From Candidatus Enterousia onthequi (GTDB taxonomy: Bacteria; Pseudomonadota; Alphaproteobacteria; Rs-D84), in assembly GCA_018064365.1 (NCBI GenBank), contig JAGHVJ010000032.1, positions 1-36,516 of the forward strand: 36,516 nucleotides of DNA. Reading direction: 5' to 3'. A program made the position numbers and the translations under genes. This document shows, one piece after another, positions 1 to 36,516 of the stretch. Position 1 is the stretch's first letter. The number at the start of each line of letters is the position of its first letter. Under the pieces are notes generated by a model that saw only the letters and a list, made by a program, of their open reading frames with translations, did no database searches and was not told the origin of the DNA.

Positions 1-112
1 AAAAGTGTCGCAAAAAACCTAGGTTTTTTGACAAGTGTTTTTTTTAGTTTTTTTCAATTTTTTTAATTTTCGTTTTTTCTGTAAAAACAAAGGGTTATAA
101 AATCCGGTCTTC
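1..112 (+). repeat. Dispersed repeat, copy 1 (palindrome plus T-rich tract)
   Basis: This 112-bp stretch recurs at 36405-36516 with three mismatches, by direct comparison. It opens with a perfect 18-bp palindrome at 12-29 (AAAAAACCTAGGTTTTTT) flanked by TGTC on the left and GACA on the right. A very T-rich tract follows, and it ends in a TATAAAAT-containing segment near 96-103. The window begins inside the copy, so its left boundary is unknown. Its position upstream of a secreted-protein gene suggests a regulatory or recombination element, but that is inference. Confidence 0.85.
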
Positions 113-123
113 GCGCGGTGTGG

Positions 124-155
124 TGTCGCAAAAAAACCTAGGTTTTTGGTATACT
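124..155 (+). promoter_or_regulatory. Second palindrome overlapping an extended -10 promoter
   Basis: GTGTCGC followed by a near copy of the 12-29 palindrome (A7-CCTAGG-T5) lies at 124-147. It runs directly into TG-G-TATACT (147-155), a good extended -10 element. No convincing -35 is visible, so the palindrome occupies the -35 region. Transcription would begin near 162, leaving a leader of about 57 bases before the ATG at 219. The palindrome centres at 20.5 and 139.5 are 119 bp apart. The layout suits a dimeric regulator binding at two operators; the regulator is unknown. Confidence 0.45.
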
Positions 156-218
156 GTTTACAAAGGGAAAAAACTAAGGAATTCTAAGGAAAAATTACGC
201 GTACGAGAGAGTAAAAAA

Positions 219-1484
219 ATGCCTAAAAAAATGTCTTTTTTAAGAGTTTTTCAGAAAATCGCACTTTTTGCATGTGTTTTTTGTGTGTTTTCGGCATGGG
301 CAGAAACAACGACATGCGACATAAATTTTACACCGGTTACCGGAAATAGTATTCAAAACGGCACGCCAACCCCAGAGAATCCTGTTGAAGTTGTTAGTGT
401 TGGAAATAAAACAGATTTTGGTATTGTTGATGGCAGTTATTATGACCAAGATGGAAACGTTATTATAAACTCTGGCTTCTGGCGCAATACAGAGTATATA
501 CCAGTTAAGCCAAATACGACAATTATCATTAGTGGTTGCGGAGCATCAGGGGAATCAGCGACAGCGAAATTGGTAGTGTATAATTCAAAAAAAACAAGGA
601 TAGATTATTGGTCTGTTACTAATAGGAGTATCACACTTCAAGTAAGCAACACAGCATATATAAGATTATCTGCCGCAAATATTTATAAAAATACTATACA
701 AATAACAGATTCTAAAGGGAATATTATATTTACAAACAAATATCAAATGCCAATAGTAGGAACAAGGGCAAATGGTTCGCAAACCACCGCATCTATTTAT
801 ATAAATGAACCTTTACGCAAAGTCGGTGATTACGCAGATGAATTGCGACCAGATGGCACTGTTATCCGCCGCGTCGGTGTGAAAGTGTTGGATGGAACAG
901 AAGATTGGGAAAAGAGAGCTACTGTTTATCCGTATGTTCTTGATTTGTTGCCTACAAACTATGCTACTGGCACTTTACTTGTCAGCAATTATTATAGTGG
1001 TAACACGGCTAATAGTGGTTCTGCAGATTATGGCAATTACTCCTGTTGGGTGCAATCTACTTCTCAATATCCAAGACTTTATATCAGAGATGATAGATTT
1101 ACAACTTTAAGTGGCACTACTGGTATTAATGATTTCAAGGCGTATCTTGCACAGCAATATGCAAATGGCACACCGGTGACGATTTATTATCCTTTGGCGA
1201 CGGAGGTGGTGGAAAGTTGGTCTTGTGGACCAATTGCGGAAATCAAAATCGCAACGACGAAGATGGTGGATGAAGAATTTGCGGCGGCGGAGGCAAAGTT
1301 GGCAACCACAGTTCAAACAATTGAAAGTGTTGTATCACGCACAATAACCCAAACCGGACAAATTCAGGTATTACAAGACACAAAACAAACCCGCCCTGAT
1401 GAAAATTGTCCTGCAAATATGAAATGCCTGCTGGTTCAAGATGAAGACGGCACCCCACATTGGTACCCCATCATCGAACCATAA
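219..1484 (+). CDS. Secreted protein with phage-tail/receptor-binding-like domain
   Basis: The product is a 421-residue exported protein. A signal peptide is clear: MPKK, a hydrophobic run, then a cleavage site after AWA near residue 29. The body carries phrases typical of structural or receptor-binding proteins of Firmicutes phages: NGTPTPENPVEVVSVG near the start, then LRKVGDYADEL, RRVGVKVLDGTEDW, a DFKAYLAQQ segment and TIYYPLATEVVE. The C-terminal part has an Ala/Glu helical stretch and a short tail with two cysteines (ENCPANMKC). I chose ATG 219 because GAGAGA lies 8 bases upstream and it puts the signal peptide at the N-terminus; an upstream GTG at 120 would add 33 unlikely residues. 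The phage-like assignment rests on recognised phrase patterns. Surface adhesion or recognition is inferred, and no other phage gene is nearby. Confidence 0.75.
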   Translation: MPKKMSFLRVFQKIALFACVFCVFSAWAETTTCDINFTPVTGNSIQNGTPTPENPVEVVSVGNKTDFGIVDGSYYDQDGNVIINSGFWRNTEYIPVKPNTTIIISGCGASGESATAKLVVYNSKKTRIDYWSVTNRSITLQVSNTAYIRLSAANIYKNTIQITDSKGNIIFTNKYQMPIVGTRANGSQTTASIYINEPLRKVGDYADELRPDGTVIRRVGVKVLDGTEDWEKRATVYPYVLDLLPTNYATGTLLVSNYYSGNTANSGSADYGNYSCWVQSTSQYPRLYIRDDRFTTLSGTTGINDFKAYLAQQYANGTPVTIYYPLATEVVESWSCGPIAEIKIATTKMVDEEFAAAEAKLATTVQTIESVVSRTITQTGQIQVLQDTKQTRPDENCPANMKCLLVQDEDGTPHWYPIIEP

Positions 1485-36404: not shown

Positions 36405-36516
36405 AAAAGTGTCGCAAAAAACCTAGGTTTTTTGACAAGTGTTTTTTTTAGTTTTTTTCAATTTTTTTAATTTTCGGTTTTTCTGTAAAAACAAAGGGTT
36501 ATAAAATCCGGCCTTT
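36405..36516 (+). repeat. Dispersed repeat, copy 2
   Basis: This matches 1-112 except for one base in the T-rich part (G for T) and two near the end. It carries the same palindrome (36416-36433) flanked by TGTC and GACA and the same TATAAAAT segment. The window ends inside it, so the gene it precedes is not visible. Orientation is the same as copy 1. Confidence 0.85.

Follow-up and report, generated by a model that had tools for sequence, protein, structure and literature searches.

A probable invertible split promoter at the head of exported-protein genes in Candidatus Enterousia onthequi

In Mycoplasma penetrans, the P35/mpl family comprises about 38 dispersed surface lipoprotein genes in a small genome (Horino et al. 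2003; PMC2268961), most of which, in the account given in PMC2268961, are thought to be switched independently, each by its own adjacent invertible promoter; the candidate recombinases named in that account resemble the tyrosine recombinases Xer1/HvsR. In Bacteroides fragilis, the master invertase Mpi inverts 13 regions (Coyne et al. 2003, as cited in PMC4747536), and surveys of gut-bacterial genomes have described invertons (PhaseFinder; Jiang et al. 2019, as cited in PMC11868660 and PMC10939037).

The DNA analysed here (the window) is a stretch of 36,516 nucleotides from Candidatus Enterousia onthequi. Bacteria of the Enterousia type, in the order Rs-D84, have genomes smaller than 1 Mb and are believed to be obligate symbionts or parasites (PMC12306168). 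The cassette at the start of the window is very probably a site-specifically invertible promoter that would give phase-variable expression of one exported protein. As in the mpl family, many elements (24 complete ones and further partial copies) are spread over about 36 genes that share a C-terminal tail, a few of them lacking a cassette, and the products are presumably located at the surface. Unlike mpl, the recombinase linked to the elements in related species is a serine invertase and not of the Xer1/HvsR class, the bacterium is a member of the Alphaproteobacteria, and neither proteins nor sites seem to be related to those of mpl; the system would work like mpl, yet we do not file it as a member. 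With B. fragilis it shares the use of one Mpi-family serine invertase, assigned here by model and from relatives, for many dispersed invertible promoters of surface structures. It differs in that each switch precedes a single member of a paralogous gene family and in that the segment is about 100-125 bp long, with the -10 outside it and a core of the form CC(TA/AA/TT)GG. The promoters of B. fragilis sit wholly inside the invertible segment. With the surveyed invertons the elements have in common a promoter-bearing segment between inverted repeats near surface genes. Limited searches of the open literature returned no description of a split promoter whose -35 and -10 are separated by the recombination core or of a division of core types between tiers of elements, and a search for promoter inversion in Enterousia or Rs-D84 returned no paper, which is weak evidence.

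The cassette and its copies in the source genome

The features of the window on which the analysis rests are the following.

11-30, no strand: left inverted-repeat site, the predicted upstream recombination site; a 20-bp palindrome with core CCTAGG at 18-23
24-136, no strand: predicted invertible segment of 113 bp, OFF here, from the alignment of complete spacers in the genome
29-34, minus strand: predicted -35 hexamer TTGTCA, 11 nt inside the core and directed away from the gene, from the TTG offset in 91 of 91 elements
131-147, no strand: right inverted-repeat site, the predicted gene-proximal recombination site, core CCTAGG at 137-142, from sequence and repeat family D4
147-155, plus strand: predicted extended -10 (TGG TATACT), outside the invertible segment, from sequence and promoter scan
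205-211, plus strand: conserved GAGAGAG in a family-wide leader, probably the ribosome-binding site
219-1484, plus strand: exported protein of 421 aa, from the family alignment, with the signal peptide called by inspection
36405-36516, plus strand: second copy, OFF and truncated where the contig ends, retaining the left site (36415-36434) and the greater part of the invertible segment, from repeat comparison

The original prediction of a perfect 18-bp palindrome holds for AAAAAACCTAGGTTTTTT at 12-29, which C at 11 and G at 30 extend to 20 bp, and the spacing that had been given, 119 bp, separates the first palindrome (core 18-23) from the second on its 3' side (core 137-142). The extended -10 said to abut the second palindrome is present, since TGGTATACT follows with TATACT at 150-155, but it has no good -35 in the assembled orientation; the -35 that matches it is found at the opposite end of the cassette, directed away from the gene. 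A rightward TTGACA at 28-33 was considered as a -35 and rejected, as there is no -10 at the right distance and the hexamer is not conserved in relatives. Matches to AAAAACCTAGGTTTTT with up to two mismatches number four in the window against 0.06 in shuffled sequences, and Rfam models found tRNAs alone in the window and three loci. Sequence comparison also verified the recurrence of a 112-bp repeat at 36405-36516 with three mismatches, and the window, which is the entire contig C33, begins and ends inside copies as had been proposed. Among the contig ends compared, the window-end copy has a single exact 101-base overlap, with the end of C4, and therefore heads the exported-protein gene C4:4185-5123(-).

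The species is represented by one assembly of 884,736 bases (0.88 Mb) in 37 contigs, in which contigs break at most copies; assemblies of such genomes break at the cassettes because these are multi-copy repeats. The sequence analysed from this genome comprised stretches around the copies and related genes. Positions 1-180 of the window, used as a query, matched about 40 places in this genome, and a paired-site pattern recovered 24 complete elements, in which the left site is also present and the cores lie 118-119 bp apart; the reversed control pattern recovered none. About ten more copies sit cut at contig ends, which gives an estimated 34 or so upstream flanks in all. Nearly every copy with an assembled downstream side precedes a signal-peptide protein, and neither a mere pair of copies nor a set of unrelated housekeeping genes was encountered, either of which would have spoken against the proposal of a family of surface-protein genes, each with the same regulatory or recombinogenic cassette in front. 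The copies and the tail-bearing family behind them support this proposal, with a surface location being the likely one for the products. A search with the element pattern for a second genome of the same species gave no match in a database that may omit this or very near genomes, and the viral contigs searched gave none. One divergent element (C17:99215-99304, L068) is cut by a contig end, so that its gene is unassembled; its -35 arm, TTGATT, resembles those of other species.

Two orientations and their conservation in relatives

When the 23 other complete spacers of the source genome are aligned with that of the window, 20 match it in the same orientation (87-98% identity). Those at C15:14549 and C36:7007 have to be flipped to align (88% and 94%), while their outer arms keep their place, and the third exception is a symmetric copy on C8 without a gene side, so that the 24 complete elements comprise 21 OFF, 2 ON and 1 symmetric. 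In the common orientation the gene-side arm reads TCGCAA-18-TATACT, and inversion turns it into TTGTCA-18-TATACT; a TG precedes the -10. In the ON copy on C15, a promoter scan paired TTGTCA with this same -10 at 18 bp. The window copy is assigned as OFF because TTGTCA-18-TATACT arises on inversion only and the scan found no promoter using its -10. The -35 and -10 were assigned from consensus, register and conservation, and a promoter match is a prediction; the extended -10 may leak in the OFF state.

In the mechanism that we propose, an Mpi-family serine invertase would bind the two inverted A/T-rich arms, cut at the CC-WW-GG core and flip the 113-bp segment, which would carry the -35 at one end past a -10 and leader that stay fixed beside the gene. 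The -35 would thereby lie 18 bp from the -10 in the ON state and be directed away in the OFF state, and with about 34 such switches over a mosaic family of exported proteins, most of them OFF, cells could vary the surface proteins that they display. The cassette, which had been put forward as regulatory or recombinogenic, is best explained as an invertible split promoter, with relatives pointing to the Mpi-family invertase as its partner. The assembly graph forks at elements, and both the end of C15 (ON) and the start of C14 (OFF) lead to C19 and one gene. We set this fork aside as proof of flipping, as shared leaders explain it as well as a mixed population does.

Among the 151 searched genomes of the genus, the pattern detected one or more paired sites in 24, eight of which contain 4 to 24, and the reversed control found none. 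The sole directly repeated pair among the searched genomes, in G085, looks like a chance occurrence in coding sequence. In every one of 91 elements from 10 genomes, a TTG lies exactly 11 nt inside the core at one end only, and inverted repeats enclose a segment that, by its orientation, turns the predicted promoter toward the gene or away from it; some relatives have a poor -35 hexamer (TTGCTT). Of these elements, 51 have the cores CCTAGG/CCTAGG and 40 the cores CCAAGG/CCTTGG, and all 40 of the latter, non-palindromic pairs are inverted and none direct. Serine recombinases require matching 2-bp overlaps for recombinants to form (PMC11607074, PMC4817059), and because the overlaps must match, a fixed inverted polarity is expected of a selected inversion system. 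Surface-gene elements number about 75 OFF and 8 ON in a hand-corrected count, the gene side having been called automatically and corrected by hand near contig ends or where -10-like sequences lie on both sides (G103 L255, G089 L268/L276 and the symmetric copies). The two cores are 107-111 bp apart in most relatives and 130 bp apart in G099, and the steps between these values and that of the source genome are near one DNA turn, perhaps reflecting a phasing need of the synaptic complex.

The flip itself is visible at an element that adjoins an invertase gene in many of these species. Between G041 and G107 the spacer at this locus is 97% identical when flipped and 58% when unflipped, the upstream (left) flank is 97% identical, and what separates the two genomes here is an inversion running precisely from core to core; when orthologous elements are compared across relatives, the crossover point falls in the core. 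The same flip sets G028 and G114 apart from five other species. Both orientations of the segment at a single locus are thus seen between close relatives. One could suppose instead that the palindromes are fixed operators of a family-wide transcription factor and that the flipped copies are old, frozen rearrangements, as the position of a palindrome within the promoter spacer and the single orientation of most copies might suggest. We regard this as very improbable, given an exactly flipped spacer beside a 97% identical flank, a core centre that varies (TA, AA, TT) while the pairing stays inverted, and a serine invertase gene adjoining an element in many species. Even less credible is the reading of the elements as miniature inverted-repeat transposable elements that landed upstream of genes by chance. 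They are short and numerous, have inverted ends and in some species carry TA at the core centre, but conservation runs past the repeats on both sides into the upstream arm, -10, leader and signal peptide, the spacing of the two cores hardly varies within a genome, and the elements flip in place, as between G041 and G107; no target duplication was seen, nor any pair of occupied and empty sites with a duplicated target.

The same sites or shared repeats also support larger rearrangements, because G028 has the upstream side of one G114 locus in front of a gene that belongs to a different G114 locus, 13 kb from the first, and the synteny of its element at C5:41848 with G114 ends at the core. It could be argued from this that the cassettes are mainly hot spots of exchange between loci, reshuffling flanks, switches and surface genes, with the small inversion a by-product. 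Symmetric elements that join two upstream flanks (C8:16961 in the source genome; C5:41848 in G028), the presence of one common flank on several contigs of the assembly graph, and spacers homogenised within genomes relative to between them (mean identity 83-97% against 61-90%) all fit such exchange. It would leave unexplained why a -35 is fixed at one end with the -10 outside, why non-palindromic cores are always paired inverted, and why single-copy elements are kept beside the invertase and adhesin genes of many genomes, and we consider it unlikely as the main function. Three elements, C8:16961-17085 of the source genome, G028 C5:41848 and G089 C25:90787, have upstream-type flanks at either end and lack a clear gene, the first two with no -10 on either side and the last with TATACC on both. 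These two-flank elements may be products of inter-locus exchange or spare elements.

Invertase genes and the invertase-linked locus

The source genome contains two small serine recombinase genes, at C29:5561-6160 and C22:4011-4607. The product of the former passes the NCBIfam Mpi equivalog model NF009949 (275.8 bits against a cut-off of 272), matches the resolvase catalytic domain PF00239 with 115.5 bits and has an intact GYIRVSS motif; its orthologue in G013, a genome that also has CCTAGG elements, is 82% identical. The second Mpi-like gene (C22:4011-4607, L099) scores 251.6 bits, below the curated cut-off. In its neighbourhood are apparent prophage or mobile genes and two tyrosine-recombinase matches. 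Neither gene adjoins an element in the source genome; a related Mpi gene does so in many species besides this one. C29:5561-6160 is most likely the invertase for the source-genome cassettes, an assignment that rests on relatives, and we infer that its product inverts these sites from the linkage in those species and the fixed polarity of the non-palindromic cores. Head-to-head with this gene is a degenerate Mpi paralogue without the RVS catalytic motif (C29:4754-5371(-), L098), which has a homologue in G013 (C6:28685, L130) and could regulate inversion.

On its other side, the invertase-linked element is bordered by a gene whose product has a C-terminal YadA membrane anchor in each of three tested cases and is for that reason assigned as a trimeric autotransporter adhesin; other adhesin neighbours were assigned by matching C-terminus only. 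The segment points toward the adhesin in G028, G114, G107 and G089, and toward the invertase in most others. In G103, G050 and G116 the core of this element is CCTAGG and that of the surface-gene elements CCAAGG, so the two tiers should be insulated from each other. A tentative and rather doubtful extension is a two-tier switchboard, in which a master element points at either the invertase or the trimeric adhesin and, in some species, has a core (TA) that should not recombine with that of the surface-gene switches (AA). Were this the case, it would, together with the strong OFF bias, approach the display of one or a few surface proteins at a time in a genome under 1 Mb.

The exported-protein family

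In complete standard copies with an assembled downstream side, the start codon lies a constant 38 nt after the 180-bp cassette, and the open reading frames behind standard copies begin M(H/S/P)KK..FL..F.K. The leader is of a second type at C7, C11 and C36, where the genes run off their contigs. The family alignment shows a conserved signal-peptide-like start (signal peptides were called by eye), a variable head that mainly takes one of two forms, LPxGYTELEYIESTGTQYIDTG or CDINYTPVTGNSIQNGTPTP, and a near-invariant coiled C-terminal tail. About 36 genes of the source genome encode this tail, several of them without a cassette. The description of the window protein as phage-like found slight backing in one PHROG match (E 5e-4). 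Pfam returned no family for the four source-genome proteins tested. AlphaFold models of two members had low confidence (mean pLDDT 45 and 50) and neither profile nor fold searches gave a significant PDB match, and for these reasons no fold is claimed for the family.

That so small a genome keeps some 34 promoter switches and some 36 genes for related exported proteins implies strong pressure to vary the surface, for which host immunity, phages and a partner cell are possible sources. The core dinucleotide and the register of the -35 amount to simple rules that predict the state of each switch from an assembly or from reads, and the biology of these uncultured bacteria is therefore testable from existing metagenomes.

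Three tail-bearing members lie in tandem at C22:58068-61127 (L277) and a single one at C17:87165 (L278), and the cassette search was empty at both loci. Two other cassette-less members, C11:8503-9435(-) and C14:10290-11135(+) (L069, L077), have a common leader of about 250 nt with GGTTGGAG/CTCCAACC repeats, which matched no Rfam family. Just upstream of the gene this leader contains a terminator-like hairpin, CTCCAACCGTC..GACGGTTTTTTG, a possible sign of RNA-based control.
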